Source: a virus
DNA: 29,405 bases
IMG/VR virus record: IMGVR_UViG_3300047297_000085
Coordinates: 1-29,405 of that record
Strand: one strand, 5' to 3'
The translations under genes and the position numbers were made by a program. Below, piece after piece: positions 227-15,550 of the stretch. Positions within the stretch are counted from its first letter, which is position 1, and every line of letters begins with the position of its first letter. Below the pieces are notes generated by a model. That model ran no database searches, had not been told where the DNA came from, and was given only the letters and a program-made list of their open reading frames with translations.

Positions 227-339
227 TTATCAACACCAAAACCAAAGTTATCCACAACCTCCAAAAGCCAAGTTATCCACAGCACAACACTGGGTTATCC
301 ACAACATCTCAAATTGCGATATTAACAAACTGTGGATAA
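227..339. promoter_or_regulatory. Array of DnaA boxes (candidate replication origin)
   Basis: Three exact copies of TTATCCACA lie at 248-256, 273-281 and 295-303, an exact inverted copy TGTGGATAA lies at 331-339, and a one-mismatch copy TTATCAACA lies at 227-235. The first two exact copies share the 12-mer AAGTTATCCACA. Start-to-start spacings of direct copies are 21, 25 and 22 bases, near two helical turns, so DnaA would bind roughly the same face. AT-rich DNA with an inverted repeat follows at once, as in origins with an unwinding element. TTATCCACA is the established high-affinity DnaA site of E. coli and many proteobacteria; use as a phage origin is inference. Confidence 0.7.
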
Positions 340-5959: not shown

Positions 5960-6056
5960 TGTTGGTTATAAAGACCAACTAATCTGTAGGGGTAAGTCGA
6001 TAGACATATTGACACTATCCCTAATTTTGTTTTAAACTGTAAGCGTCAGTTGCTGA
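5960..6056 (+). promoter_or_regulatory. Intergenic region with weak promoter and hairpins
   Basis: The gap between the HNH and DUF932 genes holds a GTTGGT/ACCAAC stem near 5963-5982, a GTCAG/CTGAC stem near 6045-6057, and a perfect -35 box TTGACA at 6009-6014 followed at 17 bases by a poor -10 (TTAAAC). It could be a promoter for the DUF932 operon; the weak -10 makes this uncertain. Confidence 0.3.
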
Positions 6057-6085
6057 CACTCATTCACTTTTCTTAAGGAAACATC

Positions 6086-6937
6086 ATGGCTAAACATGTA
6101 ATCTTCTCTCGCAATGTTAACAATTCTGCTCTCTCTACAGAGCGTATCCAACAACTTGCCCCTGCTGCTTTCAGCACTACCAAGGCTGACCGCCTTACAG
6201 ATCGTTATGTGTCATTGAACACAAGCGACATCATCCCTGTGATGCAAGACTATGGATATACACCAGTGCAAGCAGCACAAAAGCGTAGCCGTAAGAATGA
6301 CCCAGCCCACTCAGCCCACATGTTAGCCTTCGCTAAGACATGGGACATTGACTTTGGCACTGGTGACATTCGTCCTGAAATTATTCTTTACAATTCTCAC
6401 GATGGTACTGGCTCAGTGAAGTTGTTTGCAGGTTGCTTCCGCTTCATCTGCTCCAATGGCATCGTGGCAGGTGATGGTTTCCAGTCTCGCATCTATCACA
6501 GCAAGGCACTGAATGGCTTTGAAGAGATGCTTCGTAACACTGTAGCCACTCTACCCACCATGATGGAGCGTCTTGAGAGACTGCGTACTGTGCAACTCAA
6601 CCCAGTAAAAGCTTTGTTGATGGCACAGCGTGGTGTAGCCACTCGTTGGGACATGCTTGATGAGATTGATAACCCAACCAAGGGTGTGTATGCAACCATT
6701 CAAACTGCTGGTGATGTGCTCAAGGTTTCTCGTTATGAAGACATGCCGATGGATGCCTTCACAGTATTCAACCGCATTCAGGAAGGTGTTATCCGTGGCA
6801 ATGCATTCGTTAAGAGCCTGTCTGACAAGCACCCCAATGGTGTGATGCGTAAAGCAAGAGCTGTTAACAGTGTGAAAGAAAACATCCGCATCAACTCAGA
6901 GTTGTGGAACATTGCCGAAGACATTGCCTTCGCTTAA
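6086..6937 (+). CDS. DUF932 family protein (phage/plasmid-like protein)
   Basis: The 283-residue product carries the DUF932 signature: an N-terminal region with DRYVSLNTSDIIPVMQDYGYTP, then IILYNSHDGTGSVKLFAGCFRFICSNGIV (about residues 99-127) and a helical C-terminus. DUF932 proteins are common on phages, plasmids and mobile islands; their molecular role is not established. A clear AAGGAA site precedes the ATG. Expression may come from the weak promoter in the upstream gap. Its stop is followed by a hairpin at 6947-6966. Confidence 0.85.
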   Translation: MAKHVIFSRNVNNSALSTERIQQLAPAAFSTTKADRLTDRYVSLNTSDIIPVMQDYGYTPVQAAQKRSRKNDPAHSAHMLAFAKTWDIDFGTGDIRPEIILYNSHDGTGSVKLFAGCFRFICSNGIVAGDGFQSRIYHSKALNGFEEMLRNTVATLPTMMERLERLRTVQLNPVKALLMAQRGVATRWDMLDEIDNPTKGVYATIQTAGDVLKVSRYEDMPMDAFTVFNRIQEGVIRGNAFVKSLSDKHPNGVMRKARAVNSVKENIRINSELWNIAEDIAFA

Positions 6938-6980: not shown

Positions 6981-7166
6981 ATGATAGTAGACACGACAAA
7001 GATAGTAGGTACATTCACTGGTGGACATGAGGTTGTCACTGTGAACATTGAGATGCTCTGCTCTAATGAGGCAGTGTTTAAAATCTGTGACATATTAAAA
7101 GGGGAAGCTAACAACTTAGGCGAAGCCCTTGACTTAACAGTCACAATTACTATGGAAGATATTTGA
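6981..7166 (+). CDS. Small acidic hypothetical protein (61 aa)
   Basis: ATG 6981 follows AAGGAA; an upstream in-frame ATG at 6912 would read through the DUF932 gene and hairpin and is rejected. The product alternates strands and helices (TKIVGTFTGGHEVVTVNIEML...). It overlaps the next start by one base (TGATG), which suggests coupling to the ADP-ribosylglycohydrolase gene. Function unknown. Confidence 0.6.
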   Translation: MIVDTTKIVGTFTGGHEVVTVNIEMLCSNEAVFKICDILKGEANNLGEALDLTVTITMEDI

Positions 7167-8005
7167 TGCATCAAGATAAAGCAATTGGTATGTTCATGGG
7201 CTTGTTCATTGGAGATGCACTGGGTGCTCCATTGGAATTCATGAGGCCACATGAGATGACACATACACTGACAGAGATGGAGGGTGGTGGTATGCACAAC
7301 ACTGCTGAGGGTGAGTGGACAGACGATGGTGCTATGGCTGTAGCAATTGCTGATGCATACATAAGCAGCAAACGCTTTGACCCTGAGGCTATCGCTATGA
7401 ACTTTAAGATGTGGAAGAAGACAGGTCACTTCGGTACTAGAGATTATGTCTTTGACATTGGCAGGACATGCAGTGAAGCCATCCATAGGATGGATGTTAC
7501 AAACCCTTATGCAGGTAGCTGTAGCTATAGTGCCAGTGGTAACGGATCTATCATGCGACTAGCCCCCATTGTGCTTGCTAATCACAACAACATGCCCAAT
7601 GCTGTGGCACAGAGCATTGCTGTGTCATTGATGACACATGGTAATGCAGACACTGTGCATTACATTGCAGGGTTTGTTGCTGAGCTTATGTCAGGCAAAG
7701 CAGAAGACAACTTCGACTATCTCAAACACTATCGTGATCCGTATGCCACAGGAACTATCATGTATACATACAACATGGCGTGGGAATGTGTTAGAGAAAC
7801 ATCAAGCTTTGAGAAAGCTTTGGTGATGGCAGTGAACATGGGCTTTGACGCTGACACTTTAGGGGCTGTCACTGGTATGTTAGCAGGGCGTAAGTATGGC
7901 TTGAAAGGTATACCAAATAGATGGCTAGAGAAACTAATGAAGAAGGATGAGTTGATTGATATGGCAGAGAAGCTCTATGCACTGGGAGGTGATGATGGCA
8001 ATTGA
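7166..8005 (+). CDS. ADP-ribosylglycohydrolase family protein (DraG-like)
   Basis: The 279-residue product matches the DraG/ARH family, which removes ADP-ribose from modified proteins or nucleic acids using a two-metal centre. Visible motifs are GDALGAPLEF (about 16-25), WTDDG (51-55, metal residues T52, D53, D54), GNGSIMRLAPI (126-136) and the C-terminal DADT (228-231, metal ligands). The usual WTDDT reads WTDDG here, but the three main metal ligands are kept, so activity is plausible. ATG 7166 is preferred over TTG 7163. It sits among early small genes and is translationally coupled on both sides. It could counter host ADP-ribosylation defences or reverse a modification made by the phage itself. 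Confidence 0.9.
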   Translation: MHQDKAIGMFMGLFIGDALGAPLEFMRPHEMTHTLTEMEGGGMHNTAEGEWTDDGAMAVAIADAYISSKRFDPEAIAMNFKMWKKTGHFGTRDYVFDIGRTCSEAIHRMDVTNPYAGSCSYSASGNGSIMRLAPIVLANHNNMPNAVAQSIAVSLMTHGNADTVHYIAGFVAELMSGKAEDNFDYLKHYRDPYATGTIMYTYNMAWECVRETSSFEKALVMAVNMGFDADTLGAVTGMLAGRKYGLKGIPNRWLEKLMKKDELIDMAEKLYALGGDDGN

Positions 8006-8204: not shown

Positions 8205-8391
8205 AACAGCATTCCCCGCTAAGGCTCTTGGTGGAATAGGTTATACAACAGGCATGACACTGCGTGACTACTTTGCAGCTAAGGCTATGGCTGTGTTGAT
8301 GACCAGTGCATGGAACATTCCACATGGTGAGTTGGCAAGCAAAGCTTATTGGTTTGCTGAAGAGATGATGAAGGCAAGGGAACAAGCATGA
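8194..8391 (+). CDS. Conserved small protein with GMTLRDYFAAKA motif
   Basis: ATG 8194 follows AAAAGGAAA; upstream in-frame codons overlap the previous gene and are rejected. The 65-residue product carries GMTLRDYFAAKAMAVLM and AYWFAEEMMKAREQA, a combination repeatedly found in phage and prophage small proteins of unknown function. It ends in an ATGA overlap with the integrase gene. Confidence 0.75.
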   Translation: MTTETAFPAKALGGIGYTTGMTLRDYFAAKAMAVLMTSAWNIPHGELASKAYWFAEEMMKAREQA

Positions 8392-9488
8392 GCCTACCCC
8401 GCTATGTCACCTTGGCTCAAGCTGCCGAAGGTGTAACCAAGTATCGCTACAACCCACCACAGGATGCAGTGGATGCAGGGGTGGTGGCTAGGTGTGTGCT
8501 TGGCACTGAGAAGGACAAAGCCTTTGCCTTAGCTGAAGAACTCAATGCTCAGCTAGACAACTGGCGTAAAGAGCTTAGATATCTTAAAGATATCTCTGAA
8601 GATACAAGGGTGCATGAGCTTATCAAGGCGTATAAGAACAACATCACCTTCACCAAGCTGAGCATCAAGGCACAACGTGACTACATGTATTACTTACAGG
8701 GATGGCGGGACAGCAAAGCCAATGGTGTTGCTCTGTATCAATGTAAGCTTGGTAGCTTAGTCACACCGCATTGTCAGAAGATATATGAAACACATGCTGA
8801 GCACAGTGTTAGCCTAGCTAACCACACCTTGGCAGTGTATCGATTGCTATTCAACTTCGCTATCCGTCATGGCTACATCACCCACAATCCATTCAGCAAG
8901 GTGCTGCGAAGAGCAGACAAACCTCGCAGAACTGTATGGAGTAGAGAAGATGTCAGAGCATTCATGAACACAGCATATGCCACATTCAAGTGGCGTAATG
9001 TAGGACTCATAGTGCAGATGGCATACGAATATGGACAGCGTATGGGGGATATGCGTAAGCTTAAGTGGGAACAGGTAGACCTAGAGAAGGGTGTGTTGCA
9101 CTTGGAACAAAGCAAGCGTAGGTCAAGGGTGACCATCCCAACAAGCACTGGTCTGCTAACTATGTTAAGGCAGCAGCATGCTGAGTTTGGTTGGCAGCAA
9201 TACATTGCACCATCTAATGTTCCTGATAGGAAGGGCGGCTTGCTACCTTACAGCCTATTTAATTTATCTAGAGTGGCTAAACAAATATTGGCTGATGCTT
9301 CTTTGCCTAGTGACTTGGTGTTGCAGGATTTGAGAAGGACAGCCATCACAGAAATGGTAGAGATTGGCATTCCAATAACTAACATTATGGCAGTGTCAGG
9401 TCATGCTACCCCGCAAAGCCTAACACCATACATCAAGAACACTTTGCGTAGTGCAACAGTGACACAAGAAATGAGAGGACTTACATGA
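8388..9488 (+). CDS. int: Tyrosine recombinase / integrase
   Basis: The 366-residue protein has an N-terminal helical core-binding region (about 80-175) and a C-terminal catalytic domain. Visible active-site residues are R218 (GQRMGD), K243 (SKRRSR), R316 (LQDLRRTA), H339 (SGHAT) and the nucleophile Y348 (TPYIK). The usual histidine of the HxLR box is Q313, a change seen in some active family members. It would catalyse site-specific recombination, for example phage integration, excision or multimer resolution. It is embedded in a coupled operon (ATGA overlaps on both sides) rather than lying beside an attachment site; no attP or tRNA fragment is visible next to it. Confidence 0.9.
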   Translation: MSLPRYVTLAQAAEGVTKYRYNPPQDAVDAGVVARCVLGTEKDKAFALAEELNAQLDNWRKELRYLKDISEDTRVHELIKAYKNNITFTKLSIKAQRDYMYYLQGWRDSKANGVALYQCKLGSLVTPHCQKIYETHAEHSVSLANHTLAVYRLLFNFAIRHGYITHNPFSKVLRRADKPRRTVWSREDVRAFMNTAYATFKWRNVGLIVQMAYEYGQRMGDMRKLKWEQVDLEKGVLHLEQSKRRSRVTIPTSTGLLTMLRQQHAEFGWQQYIAPSNVPDRKGGLLPYSLFNLSRVAKQILADASLPSDLVLQDLRRTAITEMVEIGIPITNIMAVSGHATPQSLTPYIKNTLRSATVTQEMRGLT

Positions 9489-11170: not shown

Positions 11171-11421
11171 AACTGCACGAACTTGAAGACCTCATCATGG
11201 CTGCTTGGATAACTAAGGAGGACATTGATTCCATCCTCTGGGTGTTATTGGACAGAGAGAAGAAGCCTGATGAAGACGAGCTTGCCAATTTATTAATTGG
11301 ACTACATAGCCTACACGATGCTAGAATGACTAAGCTATTCAAAGGGTACGACACAGTACTTAAGACCAACAAAATAACTTACAAGGGCTATGGCATTTCT
11401 AAAAACACACCTACCTTGTGA
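11167..11421 (+). CDS. Hypothetical helical protein upstream of primase-helicase (84 aa)
   Basis: A mostly helical 84-residue protein (LHELEDLIMAAWITKEDIDSILWVLLD...) with Leu-rich amphipathic segments. It overlaps the primase-helicase gene by 32 bases, so its C-terminal residues share DNA with the zinc-binding start of that gene. It is coupled upstream by ATGA. Function unknown. Confidence 0.65.
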   Translation: MKLHELEDLIMAAWITKEDIDSILWVLLDREKKPDEDELANLLIGLHSLHDARMTKLFKGYDTVLKTNKITYKGYGISKNTPTL

Positions 11422-13003
11422 GACATGTGGCAGCAGTGATGGCTTATCACTGAACGAAGACATGTCCACCAAATGTTTTGTATGTGATAAATATACACCC
11501 TCAACTAACAACGAAAGATTTGAAGTGATTGATATTGATACAGACAGTAAGGATACGAGCAGCTTTATCAAAGCCTACAATGAAGGACACAGTGTTAGTG
11601 TGTCAGACAGACGCATCAGCAAAGCAACAATGGAACGCTATGGCGTAGTCCGTAGCGATGGACATTACTACTTTCCTTATTACGACAGCAACTCACAGCT
11701 TGTTGCAGCTAAGCGTAGGGAAGTGAAGGACAAGAAATTCACAACAGTGGGTGGGTGGAGTAAGGGTACTCTGTTTGGACAGAACCTATACCCATCCAAT
11801 GGCAAGTACCTCACCATCACTGAAGGTGAGTTTGATGCACTGGCTGCATACCAATTGACAGGTAGTAAATATCCTGTGGTGTCTATACGCACAGGTGCAG
11901 GTAGTGCATTGAAGGATGCCAAAGCCAACTACGAATACATCAACAGCTTTGAAAACATTGTGCTGTGCTTTGATGGTGATGAGGCAGGACAGAAGGCAGC
12001 GAAGGAAGTTGCTGAATTGTTTGGCAGCAAGTGCAAGATATTTAAACCAGACCCTGAATATAAAGATGCATGCGAGTGGCTAAGTGATAACAAGGAAGCT
12101 GCCTTTGTTTCTAGGTGGTGGGCTGCTGAACCCTTCGTGCCTGATGGCATTGTGTGCGGGTCTAGCCTGTGGGAGTTGGTGTCTACACCAATGGAAGCAG
12201 CAGATTGTTTCTACCCTTGGAAGGGACTGAATGAAATTACCTATGGCATTAGAGCAGGTGAGCTAGTCACATTCACAGCAGGTAGTGGACTAGGTAAGAG
12301 TCAAACCCTAAGGGAAATTGTTTGGCATCTGCTACAGAATAGCAGTGACAACATTGGCTTGATGTTCTTGGAAGAGAGTGTGAGAAAGACTAGCCTGTCT
12401 ATGATGAGCCTAGCTGCTGATGCACCACTACACCTGCCTACATCTGTGGTGTCTGATGCTGTACGCAAGGACGCATTCGAGAAGACACTAGGCACTGGGC
12501 GTTTGTTCTTCTTCGATCACTTCGGGTCTACTGCCATCGAGAACATTGTCAATCGTGTGAAGTACATGGCTAAGGGACTGGGATGTAAGTATGTCTTCTT
12601 AGATCACTTAAGCATCATCGTATCCAGTCAGGACAATGGTGATGAGCGTAAGGCCATCGATGAAATCATGACCAAGCTTCGCATGCTTGTGCAGGAAACT
12701 AACATTGCTCTCATCATTGTTAGCCACCTCAAGCGTCCATCAGACAAGGGACACGAGGAAGGTGCAACCACTAGCCTAGCTCAGCTACGAGGCAGTGCTG
12801 CCATTGCACAACTAAGTGACATGGTGGTATCGCTAGAGAGGAATGGTCAGGCTGATGATCCTATTGAGCGTAACACCACCAAGGTGAGGGTCCTCAAAAA
12901 TCGTTTCGCAGGTTCCACTGGACCCGCCTGTTCACTTCTGTACAACAGGGATACAGGTAGGATGTTTGAGATTGATGATGCAATAGAAGGGGTGATGCTA
13001 TGA
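11390..13003 (+). CDS. T7 gp4-like DNA primase-helicase
   Basis: The 537-residue protein combines primase and replicative helicase. The N-terminal zinc ribbon has C10, C13, C29 and C32. The TOPRIM domain shows TEGEFDA (E145) and DGDEAG (D195, D197). A RecA-like helicase domain follows, with Walker A AGSGLGKSQT (297-306, K303), Walker B VFLDH (D405), the sensor IIVSHLKR (H446) and QLRGSAAIAQLSD (465-477). It would unwind the phage fork and lay down primers for the DNA polymerase encoded just downstream. Length is close to T7 gp4 (566). ATG 11390 is chosen because it puts the zinc ribbon at the expected distance. It is coupled by ATGA to the next gene. Confidence 0.95.
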   Translation: MAFLKTHLPCETCGSSDGLSLNEDMSTKCFVCDKYTPSTNNERFEVIDIDTDSKDTSSFIKAYNEGHSVSVSDRRISKATMERYGVVRSDGHYYFPYYDSNSQLVAAKRREVKDKKFTTVGGWSKGTLFGQNLYPSNGKYLTITEGEFDALAAYQLTGSKYPVVSIRTGAGSALKDAKANYEYINSFENIVLCFDGDEAGQKAAKEVAELFGSKCKIFKPDPEYKDACEWLSDNKEAAFVSRWWAAEPFVPDGIVCGSSLWELVSTPMEAADCFYPWKGLNEITYGIRAGELVTFTAGSGLGKSQTLREIVWHLLQNSSDNIGLMFLEESVRKTSLSMMSLAADAPLHLPTSVVSDAVRKDAFEKTLGTGRLFFFDHFGSTAIENIVNRVKYMAKGLGCKYVFLDHLSIIVSSQDNGDERKAIDEIMTKLRMLVQETNIALIIVSHLKRPSDKGHEEGATTSLAQLRGSAAIAQLSDMVVSLERNGQADDPIERNTTKVRVLKNRFAGSTGPACSLLYNRDTGRMFEIDDAIEGVML

Positions 13004-13230: not shown

Positions 13231-13420
13231 TGGTGGTAAGGGACACACTCAGCGTCCTAAGTCAATAGCTGATGAGGAATGGGCTACCAGATGGAATGCC
13301 ATCTTTGGTAGAGATTCATTAGAAGATTACAAACAGTCGGAGAATGTTGATAATCTCCGACAAAATGATAAGGACAAGGACAATGATCTTCTTAGACATA
13401 GAGACAAACCTGAAACATGA
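13220..13420 (+). CDS. Small conserved phage protein with GGKGxxQRP start (66 aa)
   Basis: The N-terminal pattern SDGGKGHTQRPKS followed by WNAIFGRDS is typical of a short phage protein often found near replication genes, function unknown. The C-terminal third is highly charged and likely disordered (NDKDKDNDLLRHRDK). It overlaps the polymerase gene by 38 bases. Confidence 0.65.
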   Translation: MTSDGGKGHTQRPKSIADEEWATRWNAIFGRDSLEDYKQSENVDNLRQNDKDKDNDLLRHRDKPET

Positions 13421-15098
13421 CACCATATGGCTGTGTGTAACCAAGCACAGCACCACTGGTGAGGTGAGGCACTGGCGGGAAGCCGACAGCTTGCAGCAAT
13501 ACTTAGAGGGTGAGCAAGTGGTGGGCCACAACATCATTGGCTTTGATGCTCCCATCCTGAAGAAGGTATGGGGTGTTGGCATTTCTGACAACAGCCTAGT
13601 AGATACACTGGTGATGTCACGGCTGTACAAACCTGACATTGAGGTGGTGCTTCCTAAGGAAGGCAAAGCTCCCAAACCACACAGCTTAGAGGCATGGGGC
13701 TATCGCTTAGGCAGCTATAAGATTGGTTTCACTGACTTCGACAGTGGATGGACACAAGAGATGGCTACCTATTGTGAACAAGATGTTCAACTTTTAGAAA
13801 AACTGTACAACTTTCTGACAGTAACCATGACGAAAGAAGGGTTTTCCCAGCAAAGTATTCAGCTTGAGCATGAGGTTGCCATCATCTGCCGTGGCATGGA
13901 AGACAACGGCTTCATGCTTGATATGCCTAAGGCTATGGCGTTGCATGCCATACTTAGTGGACGCATGTCTGACATTGAAGAGGAGATGCAGAAGGTGTTT
14001 CTCCCTATCGTTGAGCAGCGTTTCTCTGAGAAGACAGGCAAGCAGCTTAAGGATAAGGTAACCATCTTCAATGTTGGAAGCAGACAACAGATTGGTGACA
14101 GACTTATTAAGCTAGGATGGAAGCCAACTAAGATGACCCCAACGGGTCAACCGATAGTGGATGAAACCACCTTGAAGGATGTTGTGTTCCCAGAGGCACA
14201 AATAATTGCTGAATACTTAATGATTCAAAAGCGTGTATCTCAGATAAGTAGTTGGCTTGAACTGGTGGGTGATGATGGTAGGGTGCATGGTAGAGTGACA
14301 ACCAATGGCGCAGTTACAGGAAGGGCGACACATAGCAGTCCTAATATGGCGCAGATCCCTGCAGTGGGTGGTCCATATGGTGCTGAGTGTAGAGAAGTAT
14401 GGACAGTGCCTAAGGGATATAAGCAGGTGGGTGTTGACCTGTCAGGCATTGAGCTACGCTGCTTAGGTCACTACCTGAATGATAAAGAATGGATGGATGA
14501 GTTGCTTAAAGGTGACATCCACTGGTTCAATGCACAGAGTTTTGGCTTAGTTGACAAAGGCACTGTCAAGGATGATAACAATCCTGAGCATAAGAAGGCT
14601 AGGAATGTTACCAAGACTCTGACATATGGGGTGCTCTACGGAGCAGGTGCAGCCAAGGCAGGTAGCATAGTAGGTGGTAACAGTAGCAAAGGCAAGAAAC
14701 TTATTGATAGCTTTATCAATAATACTCCCGGCCTTTCTGCCCTGAAGAAGAAGATATCTAGGCTGATGGCTAAGGGACATCTCCCTGCCTTAGATGGTAG
14801 AAGAGTGTGGGTTAGATCGGAGCATGCAGCATTGAACACATTGCTGCAAAGTGCAGGTGCTATCATTGCTAAACAATGGCTTGTTGAATCAACAAAGCTG
14901 TTGCAAGAGAAGGGAATAAATGCTAAACTGTTAGCGTTTGTTCATGACGAAACACAATGGGAAGTTAGAGAAGATCAGGCAGAGGAAGCAGCTAGACTCA
15001 TAGAGCAAGCAGCTACCAAAGCAGGAGAAGCTTTAGGTTTCCGGTGTCCAGTTGATGCCGAAGGTAAGGTTGGTAACAACTGGCGTGAGTGCCACTAA
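13383..15098 (+). CDS. T7-like family A DNA polymerase with 3'-5' exonuclease
   Basis: The 571-residue replicative polymerase has an exonuclease domain with DIE (D5, E7), GHNIIGFD (D55) and YxxxD (Y130, D134), and a polymerase domain with motif A VDLSGIELR (D352), the O-helix RNVTKTLTYGVLYG (R407, K411, Y415, Y419) and motif C HDE (521-523). Y415 aligns with E. coli Pol I F762 and T7 Y526. ATG 13383 is preferred over upstream starts because the exonuclease motif begins four residues later and AAGGA precedes it. It acts with the primase-helicase and the SSB. At 571 residues it is shorter than T7 gp5 (704), chiefly by compact thumb and exonuclease regions. Confidence 0.95.
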   Translation: MIFLDIETNLKHDTIWLCVTKHSTTGEVRHWREADSLQQYLEGEQVVGHNIIGFDAPILKKVWGVGISDNSLVDTLVMSRLYKPDIEVVLPKEGKAPKPHSLEAWGYRLGSYKIGFTDFDSGWTQEMATYCEQDVQLLEKLYNFLTVTMTKEGFSQQSIQLEHEVAIICRGMEDNGFMLDMPKAMALHAILSGRMSDIEEEMQKVFLPIVEQRFSEKTGKQLKDKVTIFNVGSRQQIGDRLIKLGWKPTKMTPTGQPIVDETTLKDVVFPEAQIIAEYLMIQKRVSQISSWLELVGDDGRVHGRVTTNGAVTGRATHSSPNMAQIPAVGGPYGAECREVWTVPKGYKQVGVDLSGIELRCLGHYLNDKEWMDELLKGDIHWFNAQSFGLVDKGTVKDDNNPEHKKARNVTKTLTYGVLYGAGAAKAGSIVGGNSSKGKKLIDSFINNTPGLSALKKKISRLMAKGHLPALDGRRVWVRSEHAALNTLLQSAGAIIAKQWLVESTKLLQEKGINAKLLAFVHDETQWEVREDQAEEAARLIEQAATKAGEALGFRCPVDAEGKVGNNWRECH

Positions 15099-15130
15099 CG
15101 ATAGAGGTGGGTTTTCATATGGAGAATATT

Positions 15131-15550
15131 ATGAGTGAAGAAAAGAAAGCGATTAAGCTGAAGGCTGATTTGTTCTGGTGTCAGCACAACAAGGTGAATG
15201 ACATGTCCGGTAAGTTTCAGTTGAACTTATGCAACCTGTCTGATGCTGCTGTTGAAGCACTGGAAGAGATGGGCATCAGTGTACAAACTGGTGAAGAGAA
15301 GAAGGCTGACATGGGCAGGTACATCACTTGCAAATCAGAGAAGCCTATTCGTATCTTTGATACGGACAATGATGAGATTACCGAAGCTATCGGTAATGGT
15401 AGCAAGGGCAAAGCTCTTGTGTCTTTTTACTCTTGGACATACAAGAACAAGAAAGGTGTTAGCCCTTCGTTGAAGAAGCTGGTTGTCACTGACTTGGTTG
15501 AATATGCTGCAGCCAGTGGTATCAGTGCAGACGATGAGGATGTGCTGTAA
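15131..15550 (+). CDS. Single-stranded DNA-binding protein, gp2.5-like (candidate)
   Basis: The 139-residue protein begins MSEEKKAIKLKADLFW and has a beta-rich body with GKFQLNLCNLSDAAVEAL, then IGNGSKGKALVSFYSWTYKNKKG, and an acidic C-terminus (SADDEDVL). An OB-like body plus acidic tail, located between polymerase and exonuclease, fits the phage SSB family related in role to T7 gp2.5. Acidic tails are used by SSBs to contact polymerase and helicase. ATG 15131 is chosen because GGAGA lies 6 bases upstream; ATG 15119 is an alternative. A different DNA-binding accessory protein remains possible. Confidence 0.75.
   Translation: MSEEKKAIKLKADLFWCQHNKVNDMSGKFQLNLCNLSDAAVEALEEMGISVQTGEEKKADMGRYITCKSEKPIRIFDTDNDEITEAIGNGSKGKALVSFYSWTYKNKKGVSPSLKKLVVTDLVEYAAASGISADDEDVL

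Follow-up and report, generated by a model that had tools for sequence, protein, structure and literature searches.

The window analysed here is the whole of an IMG/VR virus record (29,405 bases), and its source is a virus of freshwater bacteria, a phage of a freshwater podophage clade. An array of DnaA boxes sits at the start of the record, in non-coding DNA of the early region, ahead of the first rightward early open reading frame (540–794, + strand), which encodes 84 amino acids with no assigned function and differs between relatives at this place. In two relatives (G004 and L025) a leftward late operon starts on the other side of the array, making this a divergent early/late junction. Further along the + strand lie genes for a GP88-family protein (PF17338; 871–1587), a tyrosine integrase (8388–9488), a T7 gp4-like primase-helicase with Toprim and DnaB_C domains (11390–13003), a family A DNA polymerase (13344–15098) and a gp2.5-like single-stranded DNA-binding protein (SSB; 15089–15550). 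The integrase and the three replication proteins, which a preliminary description of this DNA had attributed to the phage, were thus all recognised. Upstream of the GP88 gene is a promoter-like site that agrees with the sigma-70 consensus at 12 of 12 positions (795–823, + strand; pattern match only). Other rightward genes encode an L5 gp82-like protein, a 5′-3′ exonuclease, ThyX and ribonucleotide reductase. The early region also holds a predicted ADP-ribosylglycohydrolase (7163–8005), and relative G004 has an ART-PolyVal domain in a protein of its virion region (L175:14813–16567).

The array consists of five boxes inside 113 bases of non-coding DNA, four exact and one with a single mismatch, just as they had been described. 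A pattern search locates the one-mismatch box, TTATCAACA, at 227–235 and exact copies of TTATCCACA at 248–256, 273–281 and 295–303, all on the + strand, followed by an exact inverted copy at 331–339 on the - strand. The direct boxes are spaced by 21, 25 and 22 bases, and a further 36 bases lead to the inverted box. The last three boxes make up a conserved core triplet, numbered 1 to 3 in this order; the third often reads TTGTCCACA in relatives. No exact TTATCCACA occurs in the window other than the four copies of the array. When the window was resampled 300 times with a second-order Markov model, the resamples had a mean of 0.4 exact boxes over the whole window, and the best 113-base stretch in any of them held at most two (two in one case) compared to four here, or at most three if one mismatch was allowed. 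A chance origin of the array is thus ruled out, in agreement with the earlier claim. The AT-rich DNA with strong inverted repeats said to follow the boxes is likewise present, at 350–418 and 442–528. On the left flank of the array (about 60–190 in the window) and in relatives, a stretch running from TTCAATGAATTCAAGGACTTAG to ACTGATTCAAAATCGGTT is strongly conserved, and the motif GGTATATCCAT is also found there.

Conservation of the boxes and of their spacing in related phages had been set beforehand as a check, and the result, from 23 distinct sequences, is strongly positive, so that a want of conservation can no longer be held against the array. We gathered 80 relatives through the GP88 gene, and boxes are found at the same place in most of those in which GP88 is above about 85% identity. 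A pattern for the second of the two inverted repeats (hairpin B, described below) retrieved on its own 57 contigs, 46 of which were left after orientation and dereplication, and the distance from the boxes to hairpin B is fixed in most of these 46. The core triplet (a direct box at +22, then an inverted one at +36) is seen in 24 loci representing the 23 distinct sequences. Among them mean column entropy is 0.13 bits in the boxes compared to 0.97 bits in the spacers (Mann-Whitney P=1e-8), a significance that is somewhat overstated because the sequences are mutually related and were picked for box-like sequence at the three places (at most two mismatches each). The contrast between boxes and spacers is, however, plainly visible in the alignment itself. 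Since box bases are nearly invariant while spacers vary, we read the alignment as showing that box bases and spacing are under purifying selection. Substitutions inside the boxes mostly yield TTATCAACA and TTGTCCACA, the latter being the form typical of actinobacterial DnaA.

Outer boxes are found in only part of the relatives. In a second subclade (L034, L220, L222 and L226) the boxes are 11 bases apart, and one contig (L194) carries four exact boxes as a 21-base tandem. Another (L224:1–540) shows an inverted duplication of roughly 106 bases around the intergenic region, with DnaA boxes in both arms, which is either real or an assembly artefact. The array is absent at this place from about five hairpin-bearing relatives (L193, L196, L198, L205 and L241), meaning either that replication has another start in these phages or that the array is not essential; the slot can evidently be filled by other means. 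Upstream of hairpin A, L196 and L193 have other direct repeats in the box slot (AAAAGTTTTACAGGGTTT in L196; also TCCCGATCAGGACAT), and binding arrays look as if they had been exchanged in the slot between relatives. A slot holding interchangeable binding arrays is what one would expect if a phage protein, and not DnaA, read the DnaA-box-like motif as an operator or iteron. We nevertheless consider this very improbable: the motif matches the general bacterial DnaA consensus exactly, unrelated phage lineages carry it as well, and the proteins scanned from the window and G004 included none recognised as Rep-like or DnaA-like.

Directly adjoining the boxes is hairpin A (350–418), an AT-rich structure with perfect arms of 13 nt and a candidate for either an unwinding or a leader-RNA element. 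Its bulge sizes and tip (ATGnCAnC...GnTGGCAT) are conserved while its stems change. Hairpin B (442–528) is a long imperfect palindrome with 40-nt arms that are 80% complementary and constant feet (TGTCTTTCATTT/AAATGAAAGACA); directly after its end, the first rightward early ORF follows with its ribosome-binding site and start codon. A stem search identified these two as the sole stems of at least 12 bp in the whole window, and folded together they give z = -9.6. Changes on both sides with pairing kept were seen at 32 of the 62 consensus pairs. G-U pairs are almost absent overall, and none occurs among the 143 pairs of hairpin A's outer stem in 11 distinct versions (13 rows minus two misframed by the search pattern). 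Such a near-absence is unusual for a selected RNA and hints that the hairpins may pair as DNA or undergo arm-to-arm correction; block exchange between phages would equally give few G-U pairs. Neither hairpin reached the gathering score of an Rfam family; the matches, to microRNA-type and other models, all scored far lower, and we rejected a known RNA family. Hairpin A is present in one copy per genome in all six near-complete relatives, and is absent from all marine relatives tested (including HMO-2011 and HTVC115P) and from the spring phage ctYwJ313. The position of the array relative to the hairpins is fixed among relatives carrying both. Hairpins were not found near the DnaA arrays of phages from other lineages, so that arrays and hairpins are separable modules. 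The idea of hairpins and boxes as one unit is weakened accordingly, both by those arrays without hairpins and by the hairpin-bearing relatives without boxes. We did not find a single promoter that accounts for both. As a pair, the hairpins constitute an unannotated conserved structure.

The setting invites an explanation in terms of transcription. DnaA is known to regulate transcription (PMC6015884, PMC5835720), and it could time the early and late operons from boxes that are intergenic between divergent leftward late and rightward early operons. The hairpins would then be a structured early-mRNA leader, serving as an RNase III site or in antitermination, consistent with their conservation with covariation and with hairpin B stopping right ahead of the ribosome-binding site. 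However, no conserved sigma-70 promoter was found to overlap the boxes, the sole strong promoter-like site being the one at 795, and five phased high-affinity boxes exceed what is typical of a DnaA-regulated promoter. Coupled with the scarcity of G-U pairs in hairpin A, this makes a role in transcription unlikely in our judgement.

The location of the array can also be viewed through GC skew. The minimum of the detrended cumulative skew lies about 30–320 bases from the array in six of the six near-complete relatives (56–58 kb, terminal repeats of 123–127 bases being present in two), and the maximum falls on or close to the convergent early/late junction. The array-less HMO-2011, HTVC115P and ctYwJ313 have their minimum in the same divergent region, and gene orientation also switches where the minimum lies. 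Skew does not therefore single out the boxes: it supports the location but not their role, and we dropped it as an independent proof of an origin. Near the convergent junction, or at contig ends, three relatives (G002, G005 and G006) carry tRNA-like 3′ halves that end in CCA; one such half has the anticodon TCT, and that of G005 lies inside the terminal repeat. An attP derived from a tRNA 3′ end was considered for these three and rejected, as the matches look like whole or partial phage tRNA genes and not an attP by the integrase.

The preliminary description had left the choice between an origin and a decoy for host DnaA. The high-affinity boxes would grow in number as the phage is copied, and could act as a DnaA sink or as a datA/DARS-like modifier of the DnaA-ATP/ADP balance, by which host initiation would be blocked or driven during phage synthesis. 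There is precedent in plasmids with DnaA boxes, which titrate DnaA, and in the ColE1 origin, which contains a three-box DARS (PMC5835720). A decoy, however, needs neither spacing nor orientation, both of which are kept here, and few exact boxes are found elsewhere in the genome. That the boxes form a single compact, phased array of fixed spacing at one place, rather than many scattered sites, makes the decoy less favoured, and we think a sink or modifier distinctly unlikely, more so than transcriptional control. Of the two options the origin is preferred, with the array conserved and placed at the divergent junction and at the (confounded) skew minimum. A third suggestion, a plasmid-like maintenance state, has no support. 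No Rep, ParA/B or repressor was recognised with Pfam and PHROGs among the scanned proteins of the window and relative G004 (including part of the small ORFs), and GTDB genomes yielded neither a prophage nor a plasmid copy, a host search there with the primase-helicase query and the hairpin-B pattern giving no match.

A DnaA origin had been called unexpected for a T7-like replicon. At its primary origin, T7 opens the DNA by transcribing it with an RNA polymerase of its own, and that enzyme, the mark of a transcription-opened T7-type origin, was found in 0 of 21 records (the window and 20 relatives) by a search that recovered T7 itself; the same search did not find it in ctYwJ313 or HTVC115P. 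A T7-style transcription origin is therefore not to be expected. The replicon is T7-like in its replisome genes only, and the surprise is lessened by the missing phage polymerase.

Taken as a fixed-phase, selected array beside AT-rich DNA, in a phage with its own fork proteins and no T7-type RNA polymerase, the locus points to an origin opened by host DnaA. On balance, the segment at about 227–440 is probably the main replication origin of the phage, a reading drawn from sequence comparison. Host DnaA would bind the phased boxes, the core being the two direct boxes 22 bases apart with the inverted box 36 bases further, and the resulting complex would open the adjoining AT-rich DNA (340–440), within which hairpin A lies. 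The phage primase-helicase would then load on the exposed strand, and forks would start, using the phage's polymerase and SSB. DnaA would in this way stand in for the opening step that T7 performs with an RNA polymerase whose gene these phages are without. We infer that DnaA binds, that the strands open at this place and that the phage helicase is loaded, as well as the part played by the hairpins; to our knowledge, no loader of the DnaB/DnaC type has been described that links DnaA to a T7-type helicase.

A similar array is found in the Limnohabitans phage DC31 (PQ492658; L246:3040–3157), where five exact boxes lie within 118 bases, in a gap of roughly 930 bases without annotated genes. As in our phage, the exact boxes occupy non-coding DNA with a GP88 gene downstream (65% identical), and they are preceded by iteron-like repeats (GACGGTTCAGTCAG..., TATATAAGCGTTTACTTATATAA). 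In contrast to our phage, DC31 is cultured, has a genome of 76 kb, belongs to another lineage and has no such hairpins near the boxes. The paper on DC31 does not mention DnaA (PMC12195039). Scanning viral contigs for three or more direct exact boxes gave at least 119 loci. Among the 119 listed, 17 encode homologues of the primase-helicase, PolA or GP88 of this phage (about 23–63% identity, mostly 32–63%), a plain count and not an enrichment test, and some of the remaining listed loci may be host chromosome. Where a listed locus also carries the primase, the array is often about 3–6 kb upstream of it. One contig (L268), with a related primase-helicase and GP88, has two arrays, at 5976–6124 (seven exact boxes) and 8696–8771 (three), and in another (L283) about 190 bases hold nine boxes.

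These arrays might represent a kind of phage origin that is widespread and has not been described, where DnaA opens the DNA for a T7-type replisome without a T7-type RNA polymerase, and in which the strictly Watson-Crick hairpins of the freshwater clade act as DNA and not RNA. Extruded or single-stranded hairpins would in that case place primers, as in ssDNA-hairpin promoters. We put this forward as a doubtful generalisation from the sequences. To the question of how replication starts in phages with a T7-like replisome and no phage RNA polymerase, the conserved arrays together with the similar one in DC31 offer a concrete and testable answer, with DC31 being a cultured phage where the origin idea can be tested. 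A host-DnaA origin, if true, would tie lytic growth to the host initiator and its ATP state.

In gene order the phage is the same as the HMO-2011-type and HTVC103P-type marine podophages (PMC8528129, PMC9038755), with GP88 and the gp82-like gene first, followed by integrase, primase-helicase, PolA and RNR, and then convergent late genes. Its primase is about 50–53% identical to those of ctYwJ313, HTVC115P, HTVC104P and HTVC103P, the values for the three HTVC phages being 50–51%. The box cluster is absent from HMO-2011, HTVC115P and ctYwJ313. HMO-2011-type morphogenesis modules are reported to be combined with replication modules of different types, that of HTVC103P among them (PMC8528129). Relative G004 has an SU10-like portal and adaptor.

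Origins with DnaA boxes are themselves already known. For one phage genome, that of the PolA-encoding Pseudomonas phage PseuGes_254, its report gives an Ori-Finder prediction from DnaA boxes and AT-rich DNA (PMC11512268), which as presented there concerns a single genome, whereas the array here is conserved across relatives. In open-licence PMC papers we found no description of conserved DnaA arrays in phages whose replisome is T7-like. Plasmids and phage-plasmids with DnaA-box origins are well known, for instance P1 oriR, pSC101, F ori2 and R6K. They resemble this locus in having a DnaA-box cluster beside AT-rich DNA in an extrachromosomal replicon. They need, however, a Rep protein of their own with iterons and load host DnaB, whereas in this phage no Rep was recognised among the scanned proteins, and the primase-helicase and polymerase are its own and T7-like. 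The bacterial datA, DARS and oriC similarly hold several high-affinity DnaA boxes in about 100 bases, though the array described here is in a phage. With T7 the phage shares its fork proteins, namely the gp4-like primase-helicase, family A polymerase and gp2.5-like SSB, but where the T7 origin is opened by the phage's own RNA polymerase, these phages are without that gene and have DnaA boxes.
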